Source of the DNA: Bolinopsis microptera
Lineage: Eukaryota; Ctenophora; Tentaculata; Lobata; Bolinopsidae
Reading direction: 5' to 3'
Length of the DNA stretch: 64,000 nt
NCBI RefSeq assembly: GCF_026151205.1
Contig: NC_087075.1
Location: 4,252,359-4,316,358 of the forward strand
In this document: positions 3,001 through 30,345 of the stretch, one piece after another
Layout of the letters: each line of letters begins with the position of its first letter
Numbering within the stretch: the first letter of the stretch is position 1
Translations under genes and position numbers: made by a program
Notes under the pieces: model-generated
Databases searched by the model: none
What the model saw: the letters and a program-made list of their open reading frames with translations, nothing else
Told to the model about the DNA's origin: nothing

Positions 3001-6000
3001 CCTCTCAAATTGTGAAATATTTTATCACAAATGAGTTACAATTTCAGCGATTATGAGTGCCCCGAACGCTCTCTGGCTCTCTATCTGTTCGTTCCTAACT
3101 GTTGCCCCTGCCGACGGTATCCCCAAAAACTGGTCAGGTCAGATCATGGTTATCACCATTTTACTTTCATTACCATTACAATAGCTGTTTTAAATGATAA
3201 CTGGAAATAAATTATGTTGATGAATGATTAATACACTTATACAGATGTTTCAAGTGATTTTAATAGCTTTGATGTGCATGATGTACATTCTTACATTGTA
3301 CAATCTACATTATAACACGATATCCAGCTACTTGGGATATTAACACGTGCACAACCCAGCTACTTGGGATATTAACACGTGCACAACCCAGCTACTTGGG
3401 ATATTAACACGTGCACAACCCAGCTACTTGGGATATTAACACGTGCACAACCCAGCTACTTGGGATATTAACACGTGCACAACCCAGCTACTTGGGATAT
3501 TAACACGTGCACAACCCAGCTACTTGGGATATTAACACGTGCACAACCCAGCTACTTGGGATATTAACACGTGCACAACCCAGCTACTTGGGATATTAAC
3601 ACGTGCACAACCCAGCTACTTGGGATATTAACACGTGCACAACCCAGCTACTTGGGATATTAACACGTGCACAACCCAGCTACTTGGGATATTAACACTT
3701 GCACAACCCAGCTACTTGGGATATTAACACGTGCACAACCCAGCTACTTGGGATATTAACACGTGCACAACCCAGCTACTTGGGGTATTAACACGTGCAC
3801 AACCCAGCTACTTGGGATATTAACACGTGCACGTAACCCAGCTACTTGGGATATTAACACGTGCACGTAACCCAGCTACTTGGGATATTAACACGTGCAC
3901 AACCCAGCTACTTGGGATATTAACACGTGCACAACCCAGCTACTTGGGATATTAACACGTGCACAACCCAGCTACTTGGGATATTAACACGTGCACAACC
4001 CAGCTACTTGGGATATTAACACGTGCACAACCCAGGTCGGATCATGATAACCATATGGTGGATGATATGTCTGGTCATGGTCAGCATGTACACTGCCAAC
4101 CTGGCTGCTTTTCTGACAGGTTAACTTTCACTTTTGCTTTTATTTTCATGTGGTCAGCATGCATATACCACCAATTTAACAAGAAATGTTGCCGCTTTTC
4201 TTTTGTGGATGGCCGCTAAATTTCCCGATCCGTGATGGCCGCCCAGTTAATTCCATATTAAATTAGAAATACATTTCTATGTCATATGTAACACTAACCA
4301 TATGTTTATTGTTTATGCAACCTGATATAGTGATATGACACGGATCTGTGCAAAATGGTAATACTATAATTTACTAACTCGAAATAATATGCTATCAATT
4401 AGTGCCTATAAGCTAGTTGGATGAAATTAACGATTTGATCGGTTCAGCGTCGCGCGCCAATACCAATTTAATTCAGATTTCAGAATATTGCGCAAAATAA
4501 CTTTGCGGAGTGACAAACAAAATTTGGTTGCTTTACTGACAATGACATGGATTTGTTGAGCATCAATTTGTAGCTTTTACGTTAGAGTTATGGTGAGGGT
4601 CAATTTTCGGGGGGTCAATTGTCGGGGTGTAAATTGTCGAGGTGTAAATTGTCGGGGTGTAAATTGTCGGAGGGTCAATTCTCGGGGGGTCAATTGTAGG
4701 GGGGTCAATTGTCGATATAATTAATGGGCAATTTAGTTCATTTGTGTGGTATGTTCGCCTTAGTATCCACATTTAAACAAATAAAAAGCTATAACTTACA
4801 GAGAATATGTAGTCTAGGCTTACCTTTCATATAAAGTAAGTCTCATTCAAAAATATTGATATTTAACCAATTTATGGGCCGAAATCTATTAAATTTGGTG
4901 CGTATGCCCAAATTTGGGCAAATGGTTTTTGGCCCATAACTCAGTCATCTTTTGTCCAATCTTGATGAAATTTCATTTATGAGTTTAGGAGCCCACTAGC
5001 TACAACCTGGGGTTTCGACATGTTCAGGGTATTAGGTCAAATTGGGCCTAATTTGGACCAAATATGGGCGTGGCTGCACCGCGGGCACCGTTTGGCGGTT
5101 GGTGTCCGGGACCCCTCAAAAGTTCGGTCACCGGTCCTAGTTTGTTGAAATCAAACCCCCTATCTTGAAATCAAACCCCCTCCTTAATATATAATGTTAC
5201 GCTCAATGGACTCTGCAATCTATATTACAATCGTGGCAATTACGTCGCGACGGTCGTTTTCTTCATTAGGTTCAAGGTCGCAATATTTATTGCAGCGGAA
5301 AACATTAAAGTTTTAGCAGATTGTCCGGCTAAATCTCCCTTTATATGGTGTTACCAGGTTACATCTAGTCTCGTATTCTGTACAATAACAATGGCTCCAG
5401 AATTATAAAAATTATAGCTCGCCAGTGAACTATAGTTTTTATAGTTCCCTTAAATCACTCCAGCATTCTCACATAGCATACGTAACAGCTCCTTTTCCTT
5501 TGCGTGTGTAATGAAATAATCGCCTTCCTATATTATAGAATGTTTGAGTTAACTTTGTTTGTCGAATTTGCTCGCCCTATCTCTCTCTCCTCTCCTCCTT
5601 TCTTTGTTTTCTCTGTCCTGCAGTGATCATGCACGCCACGCCGAGGCCAAAACTTGCGGCGGAGGCGGCGTTTTTTACCTCTTTCCCTCAAAATTACTCG
5701 TGACTATCAAATTTCACTAGTTCTGTGACTCTGCACGTTTGACTCTGTGAGTTCATCTTTTTGTTGCTCTCCTTCAGTCGGCTGTTTTTCTTTCGCTCTT
5801 CAATTTTTGTAAATCTTCAGGATACAAGCTATAACTTTATGATATCTTTTTATCAACTTATTAAGTTCACAATGATTTCTAAACTTGGTCTGTTTTGTTC
5901 TACATCAAATAAAATTTTATCATTCACATATTAACACATCCCTACACGGGAATCGGTCGCGAGGGCGGAAGTCGCGAGGGCGGAGGTCTCGAGGACGGAA

Positions 6001-9000
6001 GACCCAAGGGCGTAGGACTCATGTGATCGACCTCCGCCCTCGAGTCCAACCTTTTAGGAAACTTCCGCCCTTGAGTCCTACGCCCTTGGGTCTTCCGTCC
6101 TCGAGACCTCCGCCCTCGCGACTTCCGCCCTCGTGTCCTATACCCGATATGTGATACACATATCGCATAAGCTAATTTATTCACGTTAAGCTGGCACTCA
6201 ATCATAACAGTTTAAAAACTTTTATAAATACCATCTTAGAAAGCAACGATGGAAGTCCAAACGATCATTATTAAGATAAAGGATGGTGATCCTCTGCTCG
6301 TGTCAAAAAACCTACTTACCAAGGATAGCCGTATGTTTACGTATCTAATAGAGGAATTAAAATATGATGAGCTTGATCTAGAGGATTTCTCAACTGAAAC
6401 AGTTTCCCTGTTTCTAACCCTACTAGATGACAGACAACTGGGTGAAATTGAAGATGGAATATTCAGAGAATTGCACAAAATAGCCAAAGTGTTTGAAGTC
6501 AACTGGTTGAGAGAAAGATGCTGCAATTGGTTAAAATGCAGAATGGACTCCATCGCAGAAAATAATGAAATAAAGTTCCTATTCGACGAATGCTGGTATA
6601 TTCTCAAAAAGTGGGAGGATAAAGAAATGACAAATGAACTGGTTTCAAGTTTGGCTCTGAAGGACAATTCATCGTTTATCTCAGAATATATGTCAGATCT
6701 TGACAAACTGGAGACAGGGCAGATAGATTTGCTAGTCAAACTTGGAAGAAGCAACACTGATCACTTCCTCCAAATCATTTTGCACAACTTGTCCGGTCAA
6801 AAAGTTTTGAATGAAAAAGTGAGACATCTTCTTGAAAACATAAATTTGGCGTTATGTTGTAAAAGAAATGAGGAGCTGTATCTTGAAGTGTTTGAAGTTA
6901 TATCGAACTTGTCCGGGATATCAGTTGCTGATCTGAAATCTACTCACCAACTCACGTTAGAAACTACAAGATTAACCAGTTCTAGAAGAGAAAAAATAAA
7001 ATCAGGAACATGTGTTGTGTATGATGCTAAGGAATATATTTCCCTTCTGAATAGTTGTAAAACATTGAATGATATCACTAAAGCTGTAGATAAAGGCCGC
7101 ATAACATCCATATTAGTGGTAGTTGATGTGTTGATAAGGATTTTCCTTGGTGATGCAGCTAACAAAGATCAAGAAACTGTTAAACTATTTGTGACTGCAC
7201 TCACAAATATTTGCAGTGTTAAAGAGCTACAAAAGGTATCTAGATATTATTTAGATATCATCATAACAGCTTTAAACTACTTTACTCTAGAACAATCAGG
7301 ACAGCTTATCACGCTGCTGAAGGAGTTGAAGAAGAACGAGACGTTCTGTACGCACCATGAGATCGTTACAATAAAACATCATAAAATAAATAAAGTAACA
7401 GCGGAAAAGGAGTACAAAATCCTGTTTAAATTCAAACATCCTGGAACAGGAACCTGCACAGAGTCTGATAGTACGTGCGGTTTTATCTTGAGAAATATTA
7501 GCCATGAAGGTAACAGTACCACTACACTGTGCACACAAGGTGAGGACTACAAGAACACAGGATTACATTATCATGATGTCATATCCGCACGTGACATGGA
7601 CTGGTATGATAAATATATAATATATAAATGGTATGATAAATACTCAGGTACCACACCTGCTGGTTACAAGGTAACAGTGGTAGGGAGGTGCAAGTGGTGG
7701 GAGGAGTGGCTACCAGCTGACATAACAGACTGGAAGTATGAAGCACGTTTTGTAGACTACAATGTTGCTGATTACTTGGTCGCTAAACGAAATTAGTGCT
7801 TTTCATACTTATTCTGTGAGATTTGACTCATTTTGACATAGTATTTCGTTTGTTAGACTCTGGATCAGTATACAGACAATTATCACTTTACCCGGTTACA
7901 AAAGCTGGGTCAGTAGATTGCAGTAATTTTGTAAATACCTTTAATTGTTTCATATTTTTGAAGAAGACAGATTATATAATGAATATCAACGATCAATATT
8001 TATTATATAGTTAGTTTACGATTATGTTTGAAATTTATTGCAGTTTTTGTTGTAACACTAACTCATGATTATGCTGGTATTATTAGATTTATGTCTTGGT
8101 GCAGCATACAAAAGTAACCATCATGTGTTTACTATTTACGTGTTTAATCTTATCCTGTGTTTTATTTCGTGTTAAATGTTATCTTGCACTTGTTTTAACG
8201 TAAGATAGATAACAGAAAAGGGGAGGAAGAGAAAAATAAAGGAGATAGTGAACACCTTTAATTGATACTATGTCCATCTTGAGAATTGACCCTGCTACCA
8301 CTTTACGTCTGGTATAATTGAGTGTTCTGATGAGTTCGTTTCTTTCTTTTTATCTGAGCTATAACATTTTCTGAAACCCTCTCCTCTTGTAGTAGATATG
8401 GTAAAACGTCACTAAACCTCATTATAATAGAGAAATCAGCTTGTATTTGCAAATATAAATCATGTCAGAAGCATTCTGATATGATGAATGGTTCTGAACT
8501 GCATTTCAGTTTCCAGTAAAGGTGTTGATATACGCTCAGTGGATTTAGTTTAACTGCATTTCAGTTTCCAGTAAAGGTGTTGATATACACTCAGTGGATG
8601 AGTTCTGATTTAGTTAAACTGCATTTCAGTTTCCAGTAAAGGTGTTAATATACACTCAGTTTAACTGCATTTCAGTTTCCAGTAAAGGTGTTGATATACA
8701 CTCAGTGGATGATTTAGTTTAACTGCATTTCAGTTTCCAGTAAAGGTGTTGATATACGCTCAGTGGATGATCTCCTGGGCCAACAAGAGTACGCTTTTGG
8801 CACAGTGGAAGGATCGATCACAGAGAATCTGTTCATCAATAGTGATGTAAGACATTAAGATTCCGATTCTATTACTACTATAGTTGATTCTATTACTACT
8901 AGTTGATTTTATTACTACTAGTTACTCTTCTAGCTGAGAACGACTAACAAGTCTTATTTGATATTTTAATTATTTTTAATTTTGAACAACAACCTATTAA

Positions 9001-11161
9001 TTAAGCAATTACATTTGTAGAACCCTGGCCTCCACCGCCACCGCTTTTCGTTTTTGCCCTTCTATTTCTTTTTTATCCTAAATTTTTAATTATCAGAATG
9101 CCAAGTCACTTTAATCCACCAAACAACCAGAACGCCAAATTACGGAAACTGTACGACCGTAGTGCATCAACTGAGTCCTATAAAGAAGGAGTTACACGGA
9201 TGAAGCTGGGAAAGTATATTTTTCTTTACGGTAACGGTCCTCTCGACCTAACCACCTCAATTAACTGCAATTTGGAAATAATTGGCGATGTCCTCGTAGA
9301 TTTCGGGTATGAAGAAATTATTGGTTTTTTGATAAATTTAAATTTGTTAAAAATCCATTTGAAAAAGGTATATGAAGAGGTGGAAATGAAATGTTACGTT
9401 TTACCAGTTATTGTTATTTCATTTGAATGACTGTTTCAGTGTTTCATTTTAGCTTCCAGTTATAATTCCTGCCAGAATAACAATTTTAACATTTTCAGGT
9501 ACGCATTTGCGTTTCAGATCGACTCTCCCTACATTGAACTTTTCAACAGAGAAATGCTGATCCTGCAGGAGAGGGGCATGATAAAGGACTTGTGGCAAAA
9601 ATTTGTTAAAGGTCAATTTTTACAATTAGCTCAGCTGCATTCATGGTCATCGTTCAGACAATTATTCGTTTACTTCCATTGATGGCTATGAAATTCAACC
9701 AACAGTTCAATAACTTGTACATCATCATTTTGATTTTAAGGCGTTAGTGCCGAGTAATGCCTCTGGGTAGTGCTCCTCAATCAATCAAATCATCAATTAA
9801 ATTATGAAATATTTATTGTTTACACAAACCATTCACATGGTTTACTGAACAGTTTGGGGAAAGGAAAATAGTGCCGTATAAATGGTGGAATACGGTATAT
9901 ATCACGGTTTTACTGTACTTGGTAAATCAAAATGAAAACGTACATACTATATATCGCAGTTTCAATTTGAAATTGTTTTCCTTTTCAACTTTTATTTTTA
10001 AAATGTTTAATCGTAATCATAAACATCAGGTCATTGCGACGAAGATGATGATTTTGATGCTGAAGCAGACAGTCTTGAAGTAGTCAACTTGCTGGGTTAG
10101 TAATTTAATATTATAAATTGATACGTATTTCTGACGTTTTCTGACAAATATGTTCATAAGGTCTAAAAATATAAAGTTTTAAATACTTCTGTCACAATTT
10201 CGGAATTTCTTATGTTTCTGATTGGGGATAAGTCTCCACTTAAAAACAAAATATGGATAGAATAAATTATGGATAAAATAAAGATAAAATAACCAAAATT
10301 CCAAAAATGTGACTTATGCACATTTACGAAAGATATCCGATTTTGTTTAGTGCAATTAATACACTAAAAGCTGTAAGCCTGTTAATTACCTACCGGACAG
10401 CAGGGGATCAAAAGAGCATAAGAAGCATAAAGCAACAAATCCACCAAACCGCGAGATAGATCCTTATGACAATTTTATGGCATTAAACTATACATAAAAT
10501 TTGTCGCAGATAATGCTATAATGGGAAAAATCGCGATTCCGTACATGCCGCGATTTCCTTTTGTCCCTGGTATGTTATAGAGTTATACACTTCCACAGAT
10601 TGACTTGCCACTAAAGCACTAAGGGCGTTATTTTACCAACTGGTTTTCAGAATTACTTATTAGATGGTAACTTATAGGTGGCAACTAGGTGGCAACTAGG
10701 TGGTAACTAGGTGGTAACTAGGTGATCACTAGGTGGTAACTAAGTGGTAACTAAGGGCGTTATTTTAACAAATGGCTTTCAGGACTACTCATTATTTGTG
10801 TTCCCCTCCTAGTCCTCGCTGCTTTAGTCTTTTTGCTGGAGATTCTCGCATCTCCTAAAAAGAAAAATGGAAAAAGATTGGTAAGTAAAAATAAATATAG
10901 CTTCTTTACTGGCCGCAGTTTTACAAAATATAGTTTATTAGTCTTGTTTCAGATGTCTTCATAATTAAATAATTAGGTCTCAACTTCCACTTCCACTTCC
11001 ACTTCCACTTCCACTTTCACTTTCACTTCCACTTCCACTTTCACTTTCACCTTTTCCTAACCAGGACATGGGAGATGCGATACAAGCAGTATTTGAGGAC
11101 GATCAGATGATACAAGCTAACAAAACATCTCAGCCTCTCGTGATATGTAGAGAGGACACTG
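1..11161 (+). CDS. Ionotropic glutamate receptor subunit, 3' part, 15 exons
   Basis: This is a ligand-gated cation channel of the plasma membrane. Exons, all GT-AG and in matching phase: 1-137, 281-457, 613-738, 871-1060, 1468-1634, 2243-2406, 2726-2928, 3048-3137, 4036-4119, 8734-8846, 9131-9306, 9499-9611, 10030-10095, 10783-10880, 11065-11161. The first three or four encode the end of the amino-terminal domain (DALVYDSVYLIAHGL). S1 follows (GVSIDIIRHLQNKLNF, then SREKVV with the ligand-binding Arg), then M1 ending DRFSPYG, the pore exon, M3 ending MYTANLAAFLT, S2 with both disulfide cysteines, and M4. The Q/R-site position reads Thr, and two S2 ligand residues differ from glutamate receptors, so the agonist is uncertain. 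The 5' end lies outside the window. A further exon at 11331-11533 can join in phase, so the true 3' end is open. Family assignment is firm; exon edges are inferred. Confidence 0.9.
1251..1430 (+). repeat. 15-bp minisatellite of CRE palindromes
   Basis: The 15-base unit atgacgtcacaagtt is repeated about 12 times in an iGluR intron. Eleven units carry the perfect palindrome TGACGTCA, the consensus CREB/ATF site, in exact 15-base register from 1254 to 1411. The unit is a multiple of three without a stop in one frame, so it reads as MTSQV repeats. I see no reason to think it is coding. Confidence 0.95.
1841..1971. mobile_element. 131-bp mariner-like MITE with TA duplications
   Basis: The terminal inverted repeats begin agggtgggcca on the left and end tggcccaccct on the right, and continue inward through a shared cccatacgttgg/ccaacgtatggg segment. 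The dinucleotide TA flanks both ends. There is no coding capacity. A second, interrupted copy lies at 20241-20990. Confidence 0.75.
3048..3137 (+). CDS. iGluR pore-loop (M2) exon
   Basis: This 90-base exon encodes the re-entrant pore loop between M1 and M3. The residues ALWLSICSFLTVAPADGIP align with the family pattern around LWFSLGAFMQQG. The Q/R-site position is therefore Thr, followed by Val-Ala, instead of Gln-Gln-Gly. The exon joins 2726-2928 and 4036-4119 in phase 1 on both sides. Confidence 0.85.
3325..4035 (+). repeat. 32-bp minisatellite carrying a splice acceptor
   Basis: About 22 nearly identical 32-base units (pieces cccagctacttggg and atattaacacgtgcacaa) fill the 3' end of the iGluR intron before the M3 exon. 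The functional acceptor, cacaacccag just before 4036, is itself the end of the last unit. The intron therefore holds some 20 copies of the same acceptor sequence. Each unit also holds a CACGTG E-box and a CCCA...TGGG inverted pair. There are no spacers, so it is not a CRISPR array. Confidence 0.95.
4780..5165. mobile_element. Non-coding repeat, one arm of a foldback family
   Basis: This stretch is highly similar to 12095-12470, for example in gggcgtggctgc, ggcaccgtttggcggttg and aagttcggtcaccggtcc. The copy at 11584-12520 has inverted arms, whereas this one is a single arm. It lies in an iGluR intron and has no usable ORF. Confidence 0.7.
5945..6139. repeat. GC-rich palindrome of 15-bp units upstream of the BTB gene
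   Basis: Perfect 62-base arms (5960-6021 and 6072-6133) flank a ~50-base loop in AT-rich DNA. Each arm is made of ~15-base units such as gtcgcgagggcggaa, and the loop holds a further partial unit. The right arm ends about 115 bases before the BTB start codon, so it could form a hairpin in the promoter or 5' leader. Both strands stay open only because the unit is a multiple of three. Confidence 0.9.
6249..7796 (+). CDS. Single-exon BTB-domain protein nested in an iGluR intron
   Basis: The 515-residue protein starts MEVQTIIIKIKDGDPLLVSK. Residues ~1-100 have the BTB/POZ pattern: short strands, then DSRMFTYLIEE, LEDFSTETVSLFLTLL and a helix ending FEVNWLRERCCNWLKCRM. BTB domains mediate dimerisation and often recruit substrates to Cullin-3 ligases. 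Residues ~130-340 look helical and BACK-like. The last ~150 residues are rich in Cys, His, Trp and Tyr (GRCKWWEEWL) and I do not recognise them. I see no Kelch, zinc-finger or MATH domain. The lack of introns in an intron-rich neighbourhood suggests a retrocopy. It sits on the same strand inside intron 4120-8733. A GC palindrome lies just upstream, and an AATAAA lies near 8,236. Confidence 0.85.
   Translation: MEVQTIIIKIKDGDPLLVSKNLLTKDSRMFTYLIEELKYDELDLEDFSTETVSLFLTLLDDRQLGEIEDGIFRELHKIAKVFEVNWLRERCCNWLKCRMDSIAENNEIKFLFDECWYILKKWEDKEMTNELVSSLALKDNSSFISEYMSDLDKLETGQIDLLVKLGRSNTDHFLQIILHNLSGQKVLNEKVRHLLENINLALCCKRNEELYLEVFEVISNLSGISVADLKSTHQLTLETTRLTSSRREKIKSGTCVVYDAKEYISLLNSCKTLNDITKAVDKGRITSILVVVDVLIRIFLGDAANKDQETVKLFVTALTNICSVKELQKVSRYYLDIIITALNYFTLEQSGQLITLLKELKKNETFCTHHEIVTIKHHKINKVTAEKEYKILFKFKHPGTGTCTESDSTCGFILRNISHEGNSTTTLCTQGEDYKNTGLHYHDVISARDMDWYDKYIIYKWYDKYSGTTPAGYKVTVVGRCKWWEEWLPADITDWKYEARFVDYNVADYLVAKRN
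8499..8765 (+). repeat. Five copies of an iGluR acceptor plus exon start
   Basis: The block ctgcatttcagtttccag, continuing through aaaggtgttgatatac and ctcagtgga, occurs at 8499, 8554, 8619, 8664 and 8723. Only the last copy runs on into the full exon. The first four duplicate the polypyrimidine tract, the AG acceptor and the first ~13 codons. They are potential cryptic acceptors. Confidence 0.9.
10402..10573. mobile_element. Degenerate hAT-like MITE relative
   Basis: The right end (cgcgatttccttttgtccctg) matches the terminal repeat of the intact MITE at 51636-51784. The left end (caggggatcaaaag) is a diverged counterpart. I see no clear 8-bp target duplication. It lies in an iGluR intron. 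Confidence 0.5.
10624..10795 (+). repeat. Partial acceptor duplication flanking aactaggtgg repeats
   Basis: The segment aagggcgttattttaccaac...ttttcag at 10621-10653 is a diverged copy of the true acceptor region before the M4 exon (aagggcgttattttaacaaa...ctttcag, ending 10782). Between them lie about eight ~10-11-base units of aactaggtgg type. The layout matches the other exon-anchored arrays. Confidence 0.75.
10981..11050 (+). repeat. (CACTTC)n microsatellite
   Basis: About 11 copies of cttccac/ctttcac units precede the acceptor of the iGluR exon at 11065. They may act as its polypyrimidine tract. Confidence 0.9.
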
Positions 11162-11330
11162 GTGAGACAATAATCAATGTTGTGTGCTAACTCACTTAAA
11201 AAAATAGCCCCAATAAGGCGTAGCATAAACAGCAAATGAATTTTATCTTCAGATTAGAATCAAATTGTCACGAACGTTAACAATACACAGTTAAATACGT
11301 TACCGATAAGTTTTATCAGCTCACTGAGAG

Positions 11331-14300
11331 TATCTAAGAAAAAAAAATTCTTCAAGTTTCTTAAAAGACAGCTAAGTTTAACCTGTCCAGATCTCACATA
11401 CGAAGTACCCAGACCGGGCAGCTCCCTAGAGTACGTGAGTCCTGATTTTGATCAGTCAGTGTATGATAGGGAGGCCCTGTGGACACAGTCCCACAACAAA
11501 TCTACTCTTACTGAGACTGCTGATAATATTCTGGTGAGTACTACATGGATTATGTTTGATACATTTTGTTTCCTTTAAGGCTGGGGTTCACCCTGAATTT
11601 TTTGTGAAACTTGGTTTCGAGATAGCAGTTGACCAATTTTCATCAAGATTGGACAAAAAATGACTGAGTTATGAGCCAAAAACCATATGACCATATTTGG
11701 GCATACGCACCAAATTTGATCGATTTTGGCCCATAAATTGGTCAAATATCAATATTTTTGAATGAAACCAACTTTATATGGAAGATAAGCCTATACTACA
11801 GATTCTCTATGATTATCAGCTCAATATCTACCTAACTGAAAAATGCCCGGCAAATTTCAGAATTTGGCCGCCAAATTTTTTTAAAGGCCTAACTCAAAAT
11901 TCCATATTAAAACTTAAGGTCGAAATGCGATTCTACGTTGATTCTGAAAATTTCATGTAAAAATATTGAAACCCTATTGAGTTCTATTGTTTTGAACGAA
12001 ATCAGTTTCGCAAATATCGCGAACTGAGATATGGGCGATTTTGTTCATTTTTTGCAATTAATTGAACACAGAATCCACAGTTAGGTAGATATTGAGCTGA
12101 TAATCATAGAGAATCTGTAGTATAGGCTTATCTTCCATATAAAGTTGGTTTCATTCAAAAATATTGATATTTGACCAATTTATGGGCCAAAATCGATCAA
12201 ATTTGGTGCGTATGCCCAAATATGGTCATATGGTTTTTGGCTCATAACTCAGTCATTTTTTGTCCAATCTTGATGAAAATTCATATACTTGTTCAGGGGA
12301 CCACTAGCTACAAGTAGAGCACCTAAAATCTGGGTTTTGGGCATGTTCAGGGTATTTGGCTAAATTGGGCCTAATTTGGATCAAATATGGGCGTGGCTGC
12401 CCCGCAGGCACCGTTTGGCGGTTGGGGTCCGGGACCCCCTCAAAAGTTCGGTCACCGGTCCTAGTTTGTTGGTCAACTGCTATCTCGAAACTAAGTTTCA
12501 CAAAAAAATCAGGGTGAACCCCCCCCCCCCCCCCCCCCCCCCCCCTTAAGGTTATCTTTCTGTAGCTTTATAAGTTATCAAATAAATCGTCTTACTGCCA
12601 TTTGTAGTGATTCCTACAGAGGAGTCATCGGAGTTTTATACTTTCATAATTCATTGAAGTCATGTTAACTTCAGCCACTTTTCACCATAAGCCATAAGCT
12701 TTCAATCATTTTAAGATGTTTTAAAGCTTTAATTAAAGTTGTCTGCCCCAAATTTCAGGCACATGTAGCTATCATAACAGATGCTAGTTACACAGGCTGG
12801 GGTGCAACTAACTTAAACACTAAGAAAAGGTTTGCATTTAAACTGTAAAGAGTCTTTCCACTTAAGAATTTTAACGCTTTCTTCTACCTCTTCCACCTTT
12901 CTCCCACAAGTAAACACCAAATAACACGCTAATAACAAGCTAATTACAAGTTATTACACACTAATTGCCTGATAGTAACCCACTAATTGTTACAGTGTAA
13001 GGGGTTACTGGAGGGAGGAAGAAAAAGCTCTACCTCAACACATCTTGGAACTGAAAGCTGTGTATTTGTCCCTCAAGATATACTCTAAGTTCCAGCAAAA
13101 CGTGCACATGCAAGTCAACCTTGATGATCAGGTGAAATAACACGCTAATAACAGTACGCTAATTACACGCTAATTACACGCTAATTGCCCGCTAATTACC
13201 CACTAATTACCCACTAACTACCCACTAATTACCCACTAATTACCCACTAATTACCCACTAATTACCCACTAATTACTCACTAATTACCCACTAATTACCC
13301 ACTAATTACTCACTAATTACCCACTAATTACCCACTAATTACCCACTAATTACCCACTAATTACCCACTAATTACCCACTAATTACCCACTAATTACTTG
13401 ATGATCAGGTGAAATTCATTCATTAATTTGCACGGACTGTTTTTCGGATATCAGAAATATCTTCTTACAAAAAATCAAGTAACTATGACTGTTATTTTTT
13501 TCATTTTTTAAAATTTGCATTGTAGATTATAGAACTTACTACATGCGGGTTCGCGGTAAATCGGGGTTCGCGGTAAATCGGGCTTTAATTGTTTGTTTAC
13601 ATTATACATCAACATGTTAAGCCCTATTTATATTTAGGAGAAGGAGATGGCCGGCCGTGGTAAATCGGGGTTTGCGGTAAATAGGGGCGCGGAAAAATCG
13701 TGGTTTAACTGTGCTGTACTTTTTAAACAAAAACTAAATAATAATATTGTTCTCAAAAGTTAAATTATAATTGTTTTTAATCTCAAGAGTCGAGTTGGAA
13801 TCAAAATCAAGACCAAAGAAAAACAGTTTCACTCAGATTTCAAAGTTTAAATCTATACACTTTATAGTTTAGACGTTTAATCACTTTAAAACCTTCACTT
13901 AGCAGTTATATTTATCCATGTAGCACATGACAGCTCTGCAACAAGTCTTTTCCTTTTTCTTCCCGTCCTTTAGTCGGGTACAGTGGTGATTGTACGTAAC
14001 ACAACTCCACGGATCTGAAAATAACTTTGTCAGATTTGATGCTTCATATTAATATTTAGAGGTGATCAGAAAGACATGAAGGGGCTGTGTATCAATTAAA
14101 AATCTGCATCCATTTGAATTGCGTTATTTACCGTAGCTAAGGCTTGATCCGCACTTTTTTATATTGTTGAGATATGCTAGACAAGAGCAATCCATTACGT
14201 ATATCTCGGGCCCAGAGCATTTCGTAAACTTGTCTACGCTGATAGCGTGTTCCGCCTCAAGTCCTGGAAAATAAGATTTGGTTTCGAGAAATTCTAAAAA

Positions 14301-17300
14301 CTGCATTTATTAATGTGCACATTTCATTTATTGATTTATCCTAAAAATTTGTGTTTTCCTTTCTAGCAAAGACATCATCGGTATCCAATCAAAGCCTAAT
14401 GAACCTCATTAATACACGCTAACGCCTTACTCTTGATCAGATTGGGTGACGAGATCACTAATTGAGTGCAAATATCACTGACTGAGTGCTCGGATCACAT
14501 ATCCGATGGATTTTAAAATGGTCATAACTCAGCCATATTTTAACCAATGAACTTGAAACTTTTGGAAAAGTTTTCAATTATCAAGCCAAATGTGTGCAAA
14601 AAATTTGGAGTTCTTAGCTTAAAGCGTTCTCATTTTATGAAGACAATAGTGAAAAAGAGGGAGTGTCACGCCACGCCCACTGTAATTGGGCGTGGCTTAC
14701 GAAACTTTCAGAAAATCTAAGTTTGACCCATATCTATAATCTCTGAAATTTTGGTGCAATTTGGAGACGAATTACGTGAGCTATTAAGAGGTTGCGTGTG
14801 GGTAGTCACTTATGGGCCACTCTTATAGAAGTAAATTGCATTCTGTACTTTTCTCATCGATTATTATAGGTGGTTCTAGGGTCCTAATCTTGAAAACCCA
14901 CGAAATTGTTTTCTTGCCCTTGGGAGAGTCCACGGGGTTGACACCATTTCTCAGGGAGTACCTTCGAGAGGACTTAATGTAGGTGATGCCACCACAATCT
15001 GGTAAAACAGATATGAAGTGAAGGGATCAACTTTATAAATCAACTTTATAAGAAATAAAACTTACGGTTTATAATTTGTAAAAATGTAGATCAAGATGAG
15101 AGTCATTAACAGAATTTCAGCTGTTTACTAACCAGAACGCTTGACACACCCAGTCTGTGCTTGTTCTAAATCGTCGTAATCGGAAACTCCAGATCTGTTT
15201 CTTCCCCTTAAATATTTTCCACGGTGTTTCTCCCAGATTCCTGAAAATATTTACCAGCCGTTAAAGGACGCACGGACAAGGATCTTGACAAATATGATAA
15301 CAATTTAGTTCTGACTCTATAGAAATGCTTGGTCATGACTTACCGGAGTCAGCTGTTACTGCAACAATTATCAAAGCTAGTGCGACCAGAGAACACATTC
15401 CTTGACTGCTCCGAAACAAAACAATAGTATAAACAAAGTCACGTTTAGTTTGAAAATAAATCTATTTATGTGATCATTGATAAACTTTTGAAACTTCCAA
15501 AGATACAATCATACAATGGCCATAAACATTTAACAAATACTATTCGATCGAAACTTAATTCAACAATACATCTCGAGATTTGTTTATATATTAGAACTAC
15601 ACAATAGCATGTTTCGAAGCAGCTCCCCAAAATGTATCCGGGTAAACTAACGACTGTTAATAACCTTTCTCCAACAGCGGCGTACAGTTATTTAGTTTCA
15701 TCAATACTGATCTGATCAGAGAAAATCAACAAATCAAATTAATCAAATTTTCGTAATTCCATTGAGTTCCTTTTCAACGGAACTGCAGGACTTTTGATGA
15801 TGATATTATAATTTGCAGGGGTGTTCTGGATTAAACTTTAAATTGTATCTTTTGTTAGAGATTGTACTCTTACTCGTAGAGTGCAGTAGTAACTATGGTA
15901 ACGCTTTTGTTAGAGAATGTTGATTATATTTGATGCCAATGATCCTGGCATAATGCTGTCGTGAATGGCACCGGACTACCGCGTTGTTTCTTTCACCGCT
16001 CGTACCTTCATATTATTATTGCAGAAAAATGAACTCAATTATTTATTGAAATTCATGTCTATAATTTGATTAAAATTCTCTACTGTTTCTTAGTAACTGG
16101 TATCCAATCAGATAAAAAGCCATCTACAAAGTATGTATTGCAGAATGCAGATGTATATTATATGATAACATTACCTTAAATGGAAGTGTAACTATGGACA
16201 TGGTAACACTACCATATCAAGATTAATGTTTCCCGAAAATCAAACAACGAATGAGTACCACAAATTTCCAACAACATCTTTACAACATCGGTAAAATATT
16301 TTCGTCCATCCTCAGTTGGGGTAAAAACTCCAATAAAAACACTACCATATACGGTAACACACTCTTCCTCGTAGAGCGCAGTGGTAACTATGGTAACACT
16401 ACCATATACGGTAACACACTCTTCCTCGTAGAGCGCAGTGGTAACTATGGTAACACTACTATATACGGTAATACACTCTTCCTTGTAGAGTGTAGTGGTA
16501 ACTATGGTAACACTACCATATACGGTAACACACTCTTCCTCGTAGAGCGCACTAGTAACTATGGTAACACTACCATATACGGTAACACACTCTTCCTGGT
16601 AGAGTGGAGTGGTAACCATGGTAACACTACCATATACGGTAACACACTCTTCCTCGTAGAGCGCAGTAGACGTTATCAACGGTACAGACAACAAGAAAAG
16701 TTCGCAACCAGTTTCCTTCCTAAAACGTAAGATCTGGGAGCAGGTCCTGCAGTTCAACATAACGTTAACAGCCCGGTACGTTAGCAGCATATATTACCAC
16801 CTAGTTACCACCTAGTTACCACCTAGTTACCACCTAGTTACCACATAGTTACCACCGTAAGATCTGGGAGCAGGTCCTGCAGTTCAACATAACGTTAACA
16901 GCCCGGTACGTTAGCAGCATATATTCCTGTTACTTATTGATGTGGGTTACTAGGTTACTTTAGATAGGTCTACTTGATTGTTAAGTAATTGTTTGGTAAA
17001 ATAAGAAATAGTCAATCATACCGTTTACTTGATTGTTTAGTAGTTTTTAATATTAGTGTAGTAATAAATAGTAAATATCAACTAACAATGATAAGTAATA
17101 AATTCTGAATCACACCGTTTACAGGTACATGGATGGTGGGAAGAGCATCACAGCTAACACCATGAGTAGATTACCCGTCGACTCCACCGATTGGACCATC
17201 ACTAATGAGCTGTACGATACAATCTGCAGCCACTTTGATGTTCAACCTGAGATTGACCTCTTTGCTTCGTGGATCACTTCTAAATGTCCGCTTTTTGTCA

Positions 17301-18623
17301 GCAAGATGGACGACCCGAAGAGCTTTGCTGTGAACGCTTTTAAGCAGAAGTGGGACTCCTGGGACTGTGTGTACTGCTTCCCTCCAATCAGCGAGTCTGT
17401 TCTCAGCAAGGTAAAATAATTACCACCTAGTTACCACATAGTTACCAACTAGTTACCAACTAGTTACCACCTAGTTACCACATGTGTGTACTGCTTCCCT
17501 CCTATCAGCGAGTCTGTTCTCAGCAAGGTAAAAGGATTAACAAATAGTAACCAAATAATTACCACCTAGTTACCACCTAGTTACCAACTAGTTACCACCT
17601 AGTTACCACCTAGTTACCATCTAGTTACCACATGTGTGTACTGCTTTCTTCCCGTGAGTCTGTTTTCAGCAAGGTAAAATCATAAAACTTCTGTTTTAAA
17701 AGCTGTCCTCTGTCATACTTATATCACTGTAGTAAGCTGGTGATAAACTAAACTGATAAGCAAATATAACTTAAAGTACAGACTGTTCTAAAAACCTAAC
17801 TAAATCCTCGACCCTAATAGAGAACCTCACAACAGGTGTCAGCTCAGGTTGCCAGGTCCTACTGCAAGGTCTTGCTCATAATCCCCTGGTGGACAAGAAG
17901 CAACTGGTTTGTGGAACTACAGAAACACAAGATAGCAGAGGCGTACCCTTTGGGGAGGAAGGTAGAGCTGTATCATCCCCACGACCGACTAATGGCGCAT
18001 CCTCAGGTTACCACCTAGTTACCACCTAGTTACCACCTAGTTACCACCCAGTTACCACCTAGTTACCACATAGTTACCACCTAGTTACCACCTAGTTACC
18101 ACGTACCCTTTGGGGAGGAAGGTAGAGAAGTATCATACCCACTACCGACTAATGGCGCATCCTCAGGTTACCACCTAGTTACCACCTAGTTACAACCTAG
18201 TTACCACCTAGTTACCACATAGTTACCAACGACCGACTAATGGCGCATCCTCAGGTCATCATCCTTTTGTGAATTCTGAAATGATTTTGATTTATTGGAG
18301 TAATAATCATATCTTGATTAGGTACTGAATACTGATTATGAAAAACAATATTCGACCAATTTTACAAAGACTTGATTGGAATTTTTAAACATTTATTCTG
18401 ATTGCGGGAAATATTAATTCTTAACCTGCAGGGGCCCCGGTTGAAACTAGCAGCTATTCTGTGCAGACCTGGTGGGAGGAGGACACAGGGAGGGTTCGTA
18501 CCGGAGGGGCAGAGTGACACTAGTTTAGTTACAGGGCCGGAAACCCTGCCTGGGAGGGGTCCTGATACCATGAATGTCGCTATCAATGATATCAGTGGCA
18601 ATGAATTCCTGAATAGACGTTAA
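11331..18623 (+). CDS. Intron-split DIRS retrotransposon-derived RNase H gene
   Basis: Exons in phase: 12759-12829, 12996-13131, 16660-16775, 17125-17410, 17836-18006 and 18432-18623 (stop TAA), with a possible first exon at 11331-11533. The joined product shows the DIRS-type RNase H order: ITDASYTGWGA (first Asp), ILELKAVYLSLK (Glu), VNLDD (third Asp), the KIWEQVLQFNITLTAR helix, then TANTMSRL, FDVQPEIDLFAS and IIPWWTRSNWF. In active DIRS elements the TANTMSRL site usually reads ADxLSR, so the fourth catalytic Asp is Asn here. No reverse transcriptase core lies immediately upstream and no tyrosine recombinase follows. Six introns and intact phase argue for a host gene made from a retroelement rather than a mobile copy. 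An AATAAA lies at 19007. The start is uncertain: it could be a fusion to the iGluR transcript or use an unseen promoter. Confidence 0.7.
11584..12520. mobile_element. ~0.94-kb foldback element
   Basis: Long inverted arms (about 11584-11835 and 12075-12520) begin ggttcaccctga and end tcagggtgaacc. The right arm carries an extra ~180 bases, shared with 4980-5150, that breaks the symmetry. A run of about 27 C follows (12519-12545). It lies in an intron of the RNase H gene and has no protein-coding capacity. Confidence 0.75.
13118..13415 (+). repeat. 11-bp acccactaatt array bounded by copies of an exon end
   Basis: About 20 units of acccactaatt start right after the donor of exon 12996-13131. 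At 13397-13416 the sequence ttgatgatcaggtgaaat repeats the last coding bases and donor of that exon. Confidence 0.85.
13899..15398 (-). CDS. Secreted cysteine-rich protein, four exons, nested antisense
   Basis: Exons on the minus strand: 15344-15398, 15133-15240, 14132-14263 and 13899-14014. All have GT-AG sites and phase 1 junctions, giving 136 residues. Exon 1 encodes a signal peptide (MCSLVALALIIVAVTADS). Exon 2 has one Cys and a dibasic KR. Exon 3 has a C-x9-C-x-C-x9-C pattern, and exon 4 has C-x6-C-x12-CC-x4-C-x6-C, which resembles cystine-knot spacing. That gives 11 cysteines after the signal. It is likely secreted. I do not recognise the family and do not assign a function; knottin-like folds occur in peptides of many kinds. 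The gene lies wholly inside intron 13132-16659 of the RNase H gene, on the other strand. Four consecutive phase-compatible exons with good donors (gtaagt at exon 1) make chance unlikely. Confidence 0.75.
14500..14830. repeat. Possible diverged relative of the 4.8/11.6-kb repeat
   Basis: Phrases such as gtcataactcagccat and gggcgtggctt recall the foldback family at 4780 and 11584, but the similarity is patchy. It lies in the intron between exons 3 and 2 of the cysteine-rich gene. Confidence 0.35.
16330..16665 (+). repeat. 57-bp minisatellite carrying an acceptor and exon start
   Basis: Six 57-base units (aacactaccatatacggt... through ...cttcctcgtagagcgcagt) end at the acceptor of exon 16660-16775. 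The last unit supplies the real acceptor (tcctcgtag) and first coding bases (agcgcagt). A stray degenerate copy lies near 15865-15905. 57 is divisible by three, so both strands stay open; I treat those ORFs as artefacts. Confidence 0.9.
16725..16925 (+). repeat. Tandem copy of an exon 3' end and donor
   Basis: Bases 16855-16925 repeat 16725-16795 almost exactly: the last ~48 coding bases of exon 16660-16775, its gtacgt donor and the start of the intron. Five ttaccacctag units lie between the copies. Confidence 0.9.
17385..17680 (+). repeat. Three copies of an exon 3' end with ttaccacctag arrays
   Basis: The end of exon 17125-17410 (tgtgtgtactgcttc ... cagcaaggtaaaa) recurs at 17484-17531 and, more diverged, at 17632-17678. 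Arrays of ttaccacctag separate the copies. Each copy keeps an AAG|GTAAAA donor. Confidence 0.9.
17960..18256 (+). repeat. Three nested copies of another exon 3' end
   Basis: The end of exon 17836-18006 (cgaccgactaatggcgcatcctcag) is repeated at about 18100-18168 and 18229-18255 with the same ttaccacctag filler. The first extra copy extends back to cgtaccctttggggagg. Confidence 0.9.
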
Positions 18624-20040: not shown

Positions 20041-20240
20041 GCATGTATCGACTATTAGTGGATCTCGACTATTAGAGGATCGTGATTATTAAAGGATCGT
20101 GACTATTTAAGGATCGTGAATATTTAAGGATCTCGACTATTTAAGGATCGCGACTATTAAAAATAGAGGATCATGATTCATGACTATTAGAGGATCGTGA
20201 CTATTAGAGGATCGTGACTATTATAAAGGATTGTGACTAT
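20040..20240 (+). repeat. ~18-bp ggatcgtgactattaga array
   Basis: About 11 degenerate units run directly into the truncated left end of the interrupted MITE copy that follows. Confidence 0.85.
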
Positions 20241-20990
20241 TCAAAAGTCATTGGGCATACGTTGGTCTTAGCTCCGCCGTGTTTTATATTTGAGAGCTGT
20301 TGCTTTGCAGATAGCATACTGTACCTTCTGGTTCGAAGATTTTGTGGTCAAAATTTGAAAATTCGAATATTTTAGACCACGCCCATTCATTATTAAAACA
20401 CCTATATTGTTCTCTCTGAACATGCTGGACGTCTAATTTTTTCAGAGACGGTAGATTATTACTATTAGTAACATGTTGCATCTGATTAAAAAAATTACGT
20501 GAAACAGATTTGAAACGAATGAGTTATCAAGCATTTAGTTTATCTTGTTAGCAAAATTGATTCGGTGATTATGTCATTATGTGACACCTTGACACAACAC
20601 TTTGGTTAACGGGGTGACCTTATCAGTTTATCACGTGATCAGGTAAGCCAATCACCTGATCATACGTAATGAATAAACTCGTTATGCTTCGTATCTCAGC
20701 CATCTGAGAAGCTACAACTCTAATTTTTTCAGGACAAACGTAATCCAAATGACCAAACACAATTCAATGAAATGTAGCTCGATCCGACTATCCAAATTAT
20801 CAAATAAATGCAAAAATGAACCTTCATTTGAAAAAATGAACTAGAACTCGAATATTTTTCGATTTGACAAATTCCCCAAACCAGTGGTGGTAGTAAGTCA
20901 TACCAAAAAGAATTATTTCAATTGGGCACTCAGTGACTGAGCTATTAAATTCAAGGCCAACGTATGCCCAATGACTTTTGGCCTACCCTG
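20241..20990. mobile_element. Second MITE copy, interrupted by ~620 bp
   Basis: The halves 20241-20310 and ~20931-20990 correspond to the MITE at 1841-1971, and the break falls after gctttgcag. The inserted DNA is AT-rich and non-coding. The left terminus is truncated; the right terminus (ggcctaccctg followed by TA) is kept. Confidence 0.7.
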
Positions 20991-21929
20991 TATGCTGTAT
21001 TTATCGTGCCTTGGACGAATGTTTCTTTGCAATATTCTAGTTCTTTTTGATCTTTTCACTTCCATTTTTTGTAATATGAGATAATATTTTTTATCAGCAG
21101 GGTCCTGTGATGCAAATTTCAACATTAATAAAATTCCATATTTCGGTCGGAAAAATAACTTAAATATTTCTTGTGCAATTTTTTCAACGTACATACTATA
21201 ATAATAATTATATTATATACGGGGGGGGGGGGGGGGGCAGTGGCGTTACAAAGAGCCCCGCTGACCCGCTGTGCCTAGGGGGACGCAAAATCGCATCGTT
21301 TGAATGTGAGACAATTTTGAAAAACTTAACTGCCATGCAGTACTAGCAAAATAAGCAGATATTTTTGATATTTTGCCGGCGTATCCTCTAAATTCACCTA
21401 ATTTTTCTAATTTTAGGGAGGATACCGCTATTTGTAAACACCTCCAGGATACCGCTATTTGTAAACACCTCCAGGATACCCCTATTTATATTATAATACG
21501 CGTTGCTCTGATAACGCTCTGATAACGCCACTCATTATATAAGCGCTGTCCTCTGATGTATCGCGGTCACAAAATTTTTTGTGATGCATGACTGCGGTAC
21601 AGTCACAGAACACAGAATGACAAATTCTTATCAGTTGTTCACGCTCAAAGTAGGTATAGGTAACAAAATGACACGCAATATCTTGGGAAAGCTTGTGATA
21701 AGAAGATTAAATTAGAGAAGTTGATTCCTCGGGACAAGTTAAAAGATAATAGAGCTGCAGCTAGGGAGTTACTCAGGTGACAACTCAACTGATAGTATCA
21801 AATTACCTGCTTATCATGCCATACTACTCTTCCTTCTTTTTCAGAACAGTTTGTGCAAAAAGTGATAACTTATTATGTGAACGACCCCTAACATTTTTTG
21901 TTTTTAAGTAACACCCTGGCCTCATTTTC

Positions 21930-22690
21930 TGTTTTTAAACACCCTTTGTTTTTAACTAACACTCTGTTTTTAACTAACACTCTGTTTTTAACTAACACCC
22001 TTTGTTTTTAACTAACACTCTCTGTTTTTAACTAACACTTTCTGTTTTTAACTAACACCCTTTGTTTTTAACTAACAGTCTCTGTTTTAAACTAACACTT
22101 TCTGTTTTTAACTAACACTCTGTTTTTAACTAACACCCTTTGTTTTTAACTAAAACTTTCTGTTTTTAACTAACACTCTGGTTTTAACTAACACTTTGCT
22201 TTTAACTAACACTCTGTTTCTAACTAAAACTCTCTGTTTTAAACTAACACTCTCTGTTTTTAACTAACACTCTCTGTTTTTAACTAACACTCTCTGTTTT
22301 TAACTAACACTCTGTTTCTAACTAACACACTCTGTTTTTAACTAACACCCTTCGTTTTTAACTAACACTCTGGTTTTAACTAACACTCTCTGTGTTTAAC
22401 TAACACTCTGTTTCTAACTAACACACTCTGTTTTTAACTAACACCCTTCGTTTTTAACTAACACTCTGGTTTTAACTAACACCCTTTGTTTTTAACTAAC
22501 ACTCTGGTTTTAACTAACACTCTGCTTTTAACTAACACTCTGTTTCTAACTAAAACTCTCTGTTTTAAACTAACACTCTCTGTTTTTAACTAACACTCTC
22601 TGTTTTTAACTAACACTCTGTTTCTAACTAACACACTCTGTTTTTAACTAACACCCTTTGTTTTTAAATAACACTCTGGTTTTAACTAAC
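21930..22690 (+). repeat. tctgtttttaactaacac array upstream of the saposin gene
   Basis: About 40 units of 16-19 bases with small variants (ctttgt, ctctgt, ctggt). It ends where the five exon-start-like units begin. Confidence 0.9.
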
Positions 22691-22967
22691 CCCCAAATCC
22701 TTGTGTAGTTTTGGAAATTGAAGAGGGAGTACAAATTGTTTTAACAAACACCCTTTTCTCCTAGCGTAGCCTGAAATGTTTAAAGAGGAGTACAAAATTG
22801 GGTTTTAAAATAACACCCTTTCCCCTTAGGGAAGTGGAAATTTGAAAAGTGAGTACAAATTTTTTTTAAAACTAACACCCCCCTATCCCCTTAGTGTAGC
22901 TGGTAATGTTTAGAGGATACAAATTTGGGTTTTAAAAACCCCCCCTTTATCTCTTGTGTAGCTGGTA
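22691..22967 (+). repeat. Five diverged copies of the saposin exon start
   Basis: Units of about 60 bases repeat the series pyrimidine tract, tgtagctggtaatg, gaggagtac, aaattg. The last copy becomes the true exon (ctcttgtgtag, ctggta, ATG). The region before the start codon is therefore built from copies of the start region itself. Confidence 0.75.
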
Positions 22968-24314
22968 ATGATGAGAGGAGTACTAATTGGAGCACTCTTA
23001 GTGCTGGGAGTCAGCTCAGTAGCTGTGCAGATCATAGACCCAGCTAAGTGTACGCTTTGTAAAGCAGCTGTGTCCGAACTCAAGGTTATAATGGAAGACA
23101 AAGACACTAAAGATCTGCTGGGCGTGCTGAAGAAGTTTGTGTGCGCCAATGTGCCCATACAGGACTGCGATAACTGGGTAGATAGTGAGTTGTCCCAATT
23201 GGAGAGTGTGGTTGAAGCTTTGGATCCTGGCGCTGCCTGCTCTCAACTTGCTGTGTGCGCTACTACCATGGCCCCTCTTCAAGACTCCATACAGTGCGAG
23301 TTCTGTGAGTTCCTGGGGGATGAGGTGGTGAAGAGAGTGCTGACTAGCGCTACAATAGACGAGGTAGTGGCTGCTGCTGAGAAGGTATGTAGTGAGCTCC
23401 CCTTCGTTTCTAATGAGTGTAGTGCCCTGGTCAAGGAGTACGGACACTTTTATCTCGACCTGCTTGTAGGCTCGATTGATGTGCAGCAACTCTGCTCAAA
23501 GATAGGACTCTGCTCTCGACAAGTTAGGGACCTCATAGAAAGTACAGAGTTATTCGAGGTAATAAAGAAGGGTCTCCAGGACGACTCACCCCTCTGTGCT
23601 GGCTGTCAGGACCTGCTAGGTGAAGTGAAGAAAGCCGCTAATGACCCTGACACGATCGCTATTAACAAAGACCTAGCTCCCGTTATCTGTGAGGTGATTT
23701 CTATTCCTTTCTGTAACTCACTCATGACCAAGCTCCTCGAGGGGACCCTGGTAAAGGCACAGAACCTAGACGTAGAGGGGACATGTGTGGCTCTGGATGC
23801 TTGTTCGGGATCAGTAGTAGGAATGGGGGATGTGTGCTCAGACTGTGCTCAGATAGCTGACCTTGTTATAAAGGAGCTACAGGACCCGGCTGTGCAGCAG
23901 CAGATAGAAGCAGTGCTGGACGAGGCGTGTTCTATCCTGCCCATACCGGACTGCAAGGAGACTCTACACAGCTACATGGTCATCATAGAAACACTCATCT
24001 CAGGGATGGACGGTAAAACAGTATGTGGCTACGCTGGCCTGTGCAGCTCCAAACATGAGACAGTGAGCAGCTACGAAGTGAGCAGCAGTGTAGGAGACAC
24101 GTGCTCAGAGTGTACCATGATAGCAGGGGAGCTGATAACCCTTCTAGAGAACCAGCAGGTAGACGCTATCTTGAAAGGGGTCATCTCCGAGATTTGCACC
24201 GTTCTTCCCATCTCCAACTGTGAGACCACTCTAGACGGCTATTTCGACGAGCTCGTCGCTCTTCTCAAGAATCTGGACGGGAAAACTCTTTGCAGTCTCA
24301 TTGGACTCTGCTAG
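22968..24314 (+). CDS. Prosaposin-like precursor with five saposin B domains
   Basis: The 448-residue protein has a signal peptide (residues ~1-20, LIGALLVLGVSSVAV) and five SapB domains. Each has the full set of six cysteines: 28-97, 110-182, 210-279, 290-359 and 379-448. Saposins bind and perturb lipids and assist sphingolipid hydrolases in lysosomes; related multi-domain precursors in invertebrates also act as secreted membrane-active proteins. No saposin-A-type end domains are present. The gene is one exon here, with a plausible acceptor (cttgtgtag) six bases before the ATG, so an upstream 5' UTR exon is possible. The sixth cysteine of domain 5 is the last residue before TAG. The last codons are the first unit of the following minisatellite. 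Confidence 0.93.
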   Translation: MMRGVLIGALLVLGVSSVAVQIIDPAKCTLCKAAVSELKVIMEDKDTKDLLGVLKKFVCANVPIQDCDNWVDSELSQLESVVEALDPGAACSQLAVCATTMAPLQDSIQCEFCEFLGDEVVKRVLTSATIDEVVAAAEKVCSELPFVSNECSALVKEYGHFYLDLLVGSIDVQQLCSKIGLCSRQVRDLIESTELFEVIKKGLQDDSPLCAGCQDLLGEVKKAANDPDTIAINKDLAPVICEVISIPFCNSLMTKLLEGTLVKAQNLDVEGTCVALDACSGSVVGMGDVCSDCAQIADLVIKELQDPAVQQQIEAVLDEACSILPIPDCKETLHSYMVIIETLISGMDGKTVCGYAGLCSSKHETVSSYEVSSSVGDTCSECTMIAGELITLLENQQVDAILKGVISEICTVLPISNCETTLDGYFDELVALLKNLDGKTLCSLIGLC

Positions 24315-25250
24315 AACTCGCTGCAGTCTCATTGGACTCTGCTGGAACTCTCTGCAGTCTCATTGGACTCTGCTAGAACTCTCTGCAGTCTCATTGGACT
24401 CTGCTAGAACTCGCTGCAGTCTCATTGGACTCTGCTAGAACTCGCTGCAGTCTCATTGGACTCGGCTAGAACTCTCTCTGCAGTCTCGTTGGACCTCTGC
24501 TAGAACTCTCTGCAGTCTCATTGGACTCTGCTAGAACTCTCTGCAGTCTCGTTGGACTCTGCTAGACCGCTCTGCAGTCTCATTGGACTCTGCTAGAACT
24601 GCTCTCTGCAGTCTCATTGGACTCTGCTAGAACTCGCTGCAGTCTCATTGGACTCTGCTAGAACTCTCTGCAGTCTCATTGGACTCTGCTAGAACTCGCT
24701 GCAGTTTCATTGGACTCTGCTAGAACTCGCTGCAGTCTCATTGGACTCTGCTAGAACACTCCTAGCAGTCCATTGGCTCTGCTAGAACTCGCTGCAGTCT
24801 CATTGGACTCTGGCTAGAATCTCTGCAGTCTCATTGGACTCTGCTAGAACACGCTGCAAGTCTCATTGGACTCTTGCTAGAACTCTCTGCAGTCTCTTGG
24901 GAACCTCTGCTAGAACTCGCTGCAGTTTTCATTGGACTCTGCCTAGAACTCGCTGCAGGTCTCATTGGACTCTGCTAGAACTCTCTGCATTCTCACTTGG
25001 ACCTCTGCTAGAACTCGCTGCAGTCTCATGGACTCTGCTAGAAATCTCTGCAGGTCTCATTGGACTCTGCTAGAACTCGCTGCAGTCTCATTGGACTCTG
25101 CTAGAACTCTCTGCAGTCTCATGGACTCTGCTAGAAACTCGCTGCAGTTTCATTGGACTCTGCTAGAACTCGCTGCAGTCTCATTGGACTCTGCTAGAAC
25201 TCTCTGCAGTCTCATTGGACTCTGCTAGAACTCTCTGCAGTCTCATTAGA
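24285..25250 (+). repeat. 31-bp minisatellite grown from the saposin stop codon region
   Basis: About 31 units of aactcgctgcagtctcatt plus ggactctgctag follow the stop codon. Unit one is the coding end of the saposin gene (residues TLCSLIGLC and TAG). Units vary between ctcgctgcag and ctctctgcag. Indels increase to the right, which may be real divergence or sequence error. Confidence 0.95.
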
Positions 25251-30090: not shown

Positions 30091-30345
30091 CTCAATTCAC
30101 TATTATCTACTCAATTCACTAAAATAAATCCTTGTGTTTATACTCAATTCACTAAAATAAATCCTTGTGTTTATACTCAATTCACTAAAATAAATCCTTG
30201 TGTTTATACTCAATTCACTAAAATAAATCCTTGTGTTTATACTCAATTCACTAAAATAAATCCTTGTGTTTATACTCAATTCACTAAAATAAATCCTTGT
30301 GTTTATAATAATCAATTCAATAAAATAAATCCTTGGGGTTTATAC
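30090..30345 (+). repeat. 33-bp array, degrading into noisy sequence
   Basis: Six clean units of ctcaattcactaaaataaat plus ccttgtgtttata run to about 30310. Further copies to about 30540 carry homopolymer errors. The minus strand reads NTRIYFSELSI repeats, which I regard as non-coding. Confidence 0.9.

Follow-up and report, generated by a model that had tools for sequence, protein, structure and literature searches.

Tandem duplication and a dispersed 11-bp minisatellite at exon edges in the ctenophore Bolinopsis microptera

Changes of exon-intron structure are difficult to follow, since events that are still young are seldom caught. In a 64,000-nucleotide stretch of the Bolinopsis microptera genome (C4:4252359-4316358, referred to throughout as the window), minisatellites lie repeatedly against the edges of exons, which raises the question of whether tandem arrays start at, or are brought to, exon-intron junctions; an initial annotation of this DNA had proposed that they are systematically seeded there. 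The question also has a practical side, in that junction copies inside repeats may mislead gene annotation. The genome measures 264.65 Mb and comprises 232 contigs; the sequence analysed falls on 13 of them, which together amount to 258 Mb, and 13 chromosomes are in line with a ctenophore.

Gene models in positions 1-26 kb of the window were drawn by eye from open frames, GT/AG dinucleotides and family matches, with putative splice sites throughout, and Pfam assigned names to some of the exons only. The best solved match of an intronless glutamate receptor from the genome was the iGluR ML032222a, which we take to be a Mnemiopsis protein, with kainate receptors slightly behind. The second multi-exon gene gave nothing above the Pfam cut-off, and the motifs that it contains are presumably those of a DIRS-like retroelement RNase H. 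A genome search with that gene returned 7 matches, all of them the gene itself, and intronless relatives as an intron-gain test were accordingly dropped.

Table 1. Arrays and gene models in the first part of the window (positions are those of the window)
Feature	Position	Strand	Description
Glutamate receptor gene	ends 11190		model by eye
Second multi-exon gene	about 11340-18621		model by eye
Saposin gene	22968-24314		one open frame throughout
Array	3324-4035	+	32-bp unit x 22; most of a glutamate receptor intron, ends at acceptor; unit without coding bases
Array	8499-8765	+	acceptor with the first bases of the following receptor exon, in five copies (8504, 8559, 8624, 8670, 8728); tandem duplication in situ, 11-bp array absent
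Array	10624-10795	+	X (acceptor plus about 12 coding bases), antisense 11-bp array, X
Array	13118-13415	+	X (about 12 coding bases plus donor), array of related unit CTAATTACCCA, X
Array	16338-16667	+	57-bp unit x 5.8, ends at acceptor; splice-like bases, coding copy absent
Array	16725-16925	+	X (70 bp: 50 coding plus donor), 11-bp array, X
Array	17366-17680	+	X (about 57 bp: 45 coding plus donor) x 3, 11-bp arrays in between
Array	17960-18256	+	exon end plus donor x 3 (about 65 coding bases), 11-bp arrays in between
Array	22690-22990	+	degenerate units that resemble the region around the saposin start codon; not a splice site
Array	24284-25252	+	31-bp array, starts in last saposin codons including stop codon; not a splice site

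TRF found arrays at every place that the initial annotation had named (Table 1; X denotes a direct repeat of the target on either side of an array). The further claim that these arrays contain the adjacent splice site together with 5-60 coding bases stood for six of the eight non-saposin arrays, in which a duplicated junction with 12-65 coding bases is present, but not for the remaining two, which merely abut an acceptor. The arrays at both ends of the saposin gene, which had likewise been placed at splice sites, instead stem from the start-codon and stop-codon regions of a single open frame; edges of coding sequence generally, and not splice sites as such, can therefore enter arrays. Selection on coding sequence would by itself be expected to leave the coding copy at the array edge. 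Across positions 1-26 kb, an edge lay within 25 bp of a junction in 6 of 17 arrays, as compared to 1.08 expected (p = 0.00025), in a window that is itself the discovery set.

Beyond the window, tandem arrays proved to be abundant in this genome: TRF on 12 random 10-kb pieces identified 86 non-overlapping arrays, occupying 26,645 of 120,000 bases (22%). A control set of seven myosin loci, found by Pfam match and chosen regardless of arrays, provided 29 automatically proposed introns, of which 26 were kept (52 junctions), and none of those 52 junctions lay inside a locally duplicated 24-mer (a copy no more than 1.5 kb away, with up to 4 mismatches). The same loci contained 48 arrays, 12 of them in proposed introns, and two of these 12 approached a junction to within 25 bp (7 and 15 bp). 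The abundance of arrays in random sequence and the intact myosin junctions together indicate that minisatellites generally do not start at splice sites; proximity of array edges to junctions holds in the window and fails as a general rule, the proposal of systematic seeding is not supported, and a narrower effect, which applies to one array family and not to minisatellites generally, is likely real. Both figures also favor a reading without any targeting, in which duplication and array insertion occur everywhere, the survivors are those that keep one intact coding copy, and coding edges get noticed because coding copies are recognizable. The saposin arrays on a start and a stop codon point the same way, as does an 11-bp insert (L002, about 5162) that by eye sits on a probable stop codon.

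Several arrays and duplications were seen in passing in these and other sampled pieces. In one myosin locus, a 1.9-kb AGTAACCA array (L045 4460-6350) extends up to where an exon match starts. In another (L044 2713-3186), two tandem exons both encode the same myosin-head segment (profile 105-167 and 102-167), are too diverged for the 24-mer measure, and are perhaps a mutually exclusive pair. Related 8-bp arrays (CAGGTAAC, ACCTGGTT) occur at unlinked places (L041 6802-7261, L041 8802-9601 and L045 8869-9266), the one at L041 8802 with an X-like flank, and GTAAC or GTTAC is present in many array units of this genome.

A single family differs from the rest, with an 11-bp unit, GTTACCACCTA, that is spread genome-wide: a 42-mer of that unit, at no more than one mismatch, gave 311 forward and 130 reverse matches (overlapping within arrays). 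Loci containing it were fetched before any look at genes, as 16 pieces that represent each distinct place among the matches listed and 15 pieces at new places of an edge pattern (41 matches). An X-array-X structure was present in 24 of the 40 arrays of this unit (all 5 of those in the window and 19 of 35 elsewhere) versus 8 of 167 other arrays (Fisher 2e-14), in counts that are partly non-independent, as several arrays belong to one gene cluster (L001/L002) and multi-copy loci were counted repeatedly; collapsed by eye, X is found at about 25 of 38 places. The other arrays with X were distributed among random pieces (6 of 67, four of them in L037), myosin loci (0 of 32), the window (2 of 42, one inside a saposin array) and the 11-bp loci themselves (0 of 26), and mismatched flank pairs, used as a control, gave an X-like match in 0 of 1518.

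The details of that structure bear upon how the insert arrived. Across 16 events, X was 12-80 bp in length (median 50), and the array shared microhomology with X at both joints, averaging 2.69 and 1.69 bp versus 0.45 and 0.39 bp when paired with the X of other events. The initial annotation had suggested replication slippage as one way in which arrays start de novo; one and the same 11-bp sequence is found between target repeats at many sites, and the insert was therefore brought in. Copies also change after arrival: a common insertion at L003, L064 and L065 has 8, 6 and 3 copies of X, the array present in L022 is absent from the alignable sequence of L004, and X is not equally long in the paralogues L018 and L023, so that X can alter post-insertion and need not be a target duplication at every site.

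An insert that is brought in might be the body of an introner-like transposon family, moved by a transposase. Its copies are indeed dispersed in unrelated genes, and a few introns, at about three sites judged by eye (L001 6709, L002 5830 and L015/L017/L019), consist almost wholly of the 11-bp array. X is, however, variable in length, the microhomology at the joints is unlike the products of transposases, and the copies have no terminal body in common; blastn of masked flanks found no common body around the arrays among unrelated loci, the sharing that it did find being limited to paralogues, neighboring copies and a few repeat-like stretches. A transposon of that kind is accordingly improbable. 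Still less probable is an RNA route, in which reverse splicing or reverse-transcribed splicing intermediates (the latter also raised by the initial annotation) bring array introns into genes. Arrays do occur at both donors and acceptors, as that route would have it, but among 16 junction-spanning GTTACCACCTA events the array, by eye, is sense to the gene in 9 and antisense in 7, X extends into intronic bases past the donor, and microhomology is present at both joints. The GTTACCACCTA unit offers GT and AG in either orientation, and in several events the bases that follow the exon (GTTACC or GTAACT) come from the array.

Whether X spans splice junctions was assessed both by eye and by an automatic score. 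Thirty X events were listed and the empty site was rebuilt and rescored for 24; the six left out (G2, G4, G8, G11, L022 and L027, which had more arrays in the flank or a very short or poor X) comprised, by eye, two spanning events, one exonic event and three that were neither. In hand calls that were not blind to the hypothesis, X spans a junction in 17 of the 24 (10 donors and 7 acceptors), and the corresponding count is 19 of 30 overall and 12 of 19 outside the window. X lies inside exons at L010 and L012, is of uncertain placement at L004 and L008, and falls in non-coding-looking sequence at L013, L014 and L016, which together with L022 and L027 are the non-coding places at which 11-bp insertions were found. 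A 42-bp X would be expected to span a junction in 15% of cases given myosin geometry, in 25% given 300-bp introns and in 35% given 200-bp introns; against these three values, p for 17 of 24 is 1e-9, 3e-6 and 4e-4, and for 12 of 19 it is 2e-6, 5e-4 and 0.011, the set without window events being a weaker case at the strictest expectation (35%).

The automatic junction score combined the splice signal with codon usage on both sides; the version used here, with more coding training and 24 events, superseded a first one (9 of 30 events at p < 0.1, Fisher 5e-5), and a null built from flanks was discarded because array sequence contaminates them. Ten of the 24 rebuilt sites reached p < 0.1 versus myosin-gene windows, where 2.4 were expected (Fisher 5e-5), and 12 of 24 did so against random pieces; outside the window, 7 of 19 passed (binomial 0.0017). 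True myosin junctions passed in 57% of 54, the same myosin genes having served as training, and comparison of the two pass rates therefore suggests that about two thirds of X span a junction. Nine of the ten passing events had also been hand-called as spanning, the exception being L013 (non-coding by eye); the score missed a hand-called junction in W1, G6 and L005, and picked another acceptor in G5 and G7. These results support the view that the dispersed 11-bp family crosses exon-intron junctions beyond the geometric expectation. They also weigh upon the pure survival filter, the main rival to targeting through break repair: a filter alone predicts a mostly intronic X (with 15%, or 25-35% for short introns, spanning a junction), as opposed to the 17 of 24 called by eye and the two thirds estimated automatically. 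With its favorable evidence counted as well, that rival remains a serious minority possibility.

The best explanation of the whole is a mixture of two processes, ordinary tandem duplication and insertion of the dispersed 11-bp minisatellite. In the first, duplication of the kind that is abundant in this genome would at times capture the edge of an exon or a start or stop codon, and the captured-edge duplications would persist because one intact copy remains in use; candidate cases are the array at 8499-8765, the saposin gene, L030/L031 and L051. The last of these (C4:6352800-6353300) is a glutamate receptor paralogue, and it and L030/L031 have an exon end plus donor in tandem, in units of about 54 and 44 bp without an 11-bp array. 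In the second process, the GTTACCACCTA minisatellite would enter staggered breaks of roughly 12-80 nt, without other sequence, whereupon fill-in of the staggered ends would create X, joining would proceed through a microhomology-using pathway (template switching, for example, or polymerase-theta end joining), the inserted DNA would derive from another array or a circle of it, and X plus array would amplify afterwards. The excess at exon edges may combine more frequent breaks or joining there with the survival of inserts that splicing can remove.

To this reading, in which repair that uses microhomology joins minisatellite DNA into staggered breaks at exon edges, splicing tolerates the insert and amplification follows, we assign a probability of about 0.52. 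A bolder version, in which the 11-bp minisatellite is a mobile splice cassette without a transposon of its own that prefers junction breaks, duplicates the junction, takes over its donor or acceptor and occasionally makes a new intron, appears doubtful. Insertion of the 11-bp repeat at exon edges may reveal how DNA repair reshapes genes, and the genome gives a large set of comparable inserts in which the target repeat remains legible, such that target choice, repair pathway and splicing tolerance could become measurable.

The joining step of the preferred reading has parallels elsewhere. Short microhomology at the joints of the 11-bp arrays resembles that of microhomology-mediated (theta-type) end joining, and satellites in Drosophila reportedly disperse via circular DNA and microhomology, which would likewise copy short repeats to new places; to our knowledge, exon edges are not a described target of that dispersal. 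A report on Daphnia neointrons (PMC4202315) attributes them to staggered double-strand breaks: terminal exon bases recur as a direct repeat at the far end of the insert, the repeats shared with the exon measure 4-12 bp, and internal repeats suggest repeated rounds. The 11-bp inserts are similarly flanked by a direct repeat of their target (in 24 of 40 arrays), but X is 12-80 bp instead of 4-12 bp, a single minisatellite recurs as the insert, and most junctions appear to predate the insertion. Introners, according to a second source (PMC9860276), form characterized families with target duplications of 3-9 bp and/or terminal inverted repeats; they share with the present case many similar copies in unrelated genes and splice sites that are brought or recruited, whereas the 11-bp arrays displayed neither of those two signatures and usually comprise no whole new intron. 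Tandem genomic duplication at AGGT, which according to a third source yields intron gain (PMC3443670), resembles these events in that alternative splice sites arise when an exon edge is duplicated, and differs in that an array lies between the copies here and that only a single candidate gain (L001 8822, with AG|GT present) was found. A literature search for dispersed minisatellite insertion with direct repeats at exon-intron borders returned no paper, which is not proof of absence in print; the 11-bp effect is likely a variant of the staggered-break repair described at introns, one that differs in its longer repeats and in an insert that recurs.

The candidate gain extends from L001 8822 to L002 430, where by eye a coding stretch is apparently continuous through X, and X starts with GT after AG. 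Five copies of X with arrays follow, CTAG closes the last array ahead of the final X, and joining of AG|GT to CTAG|GT would restore the frame. A search for a copy of this region without the insert found none, and it therefore stays a candidate. In the window, a gain at 3138-4034 was ruled out, because the intron has a counterpart 5 nt away in the paralogue L057; the 5' end of that same intron, which holds the 32-bp array, resembles the start of the next exon with a score of 11, a value equaled by 0.7% of random pairs.

Some parts of the window raise the possibility of an assembly artefact. Homopolymer runs of at least four make up 19-33% of bases in positions 26001-32000 and 38001-42000, as compared to 2-17% in the remaining 2-kb steps, and these two parts are probably unpolished assembly. 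Against an artefactual origin of the arrays, which is very unlikely, stand arrays with different X on many contigs, and arrays in paralogues with different copy numbers. The array downstream of the saposin gene ends near the homopolymer-rich stretch at 26001-32000. Two further features lie within introns of the window: a 515-codon open frame (6249-7793) on the same strand as the surrounding glutamate receptor gene, which gave no Pfam match and looks like a nested intronless gene, and a foldback element (11583-12522) with arms at 11635-11838 and 12078-12281 that are fully complementary over 204 nt, and with outer arms of 54 nt.
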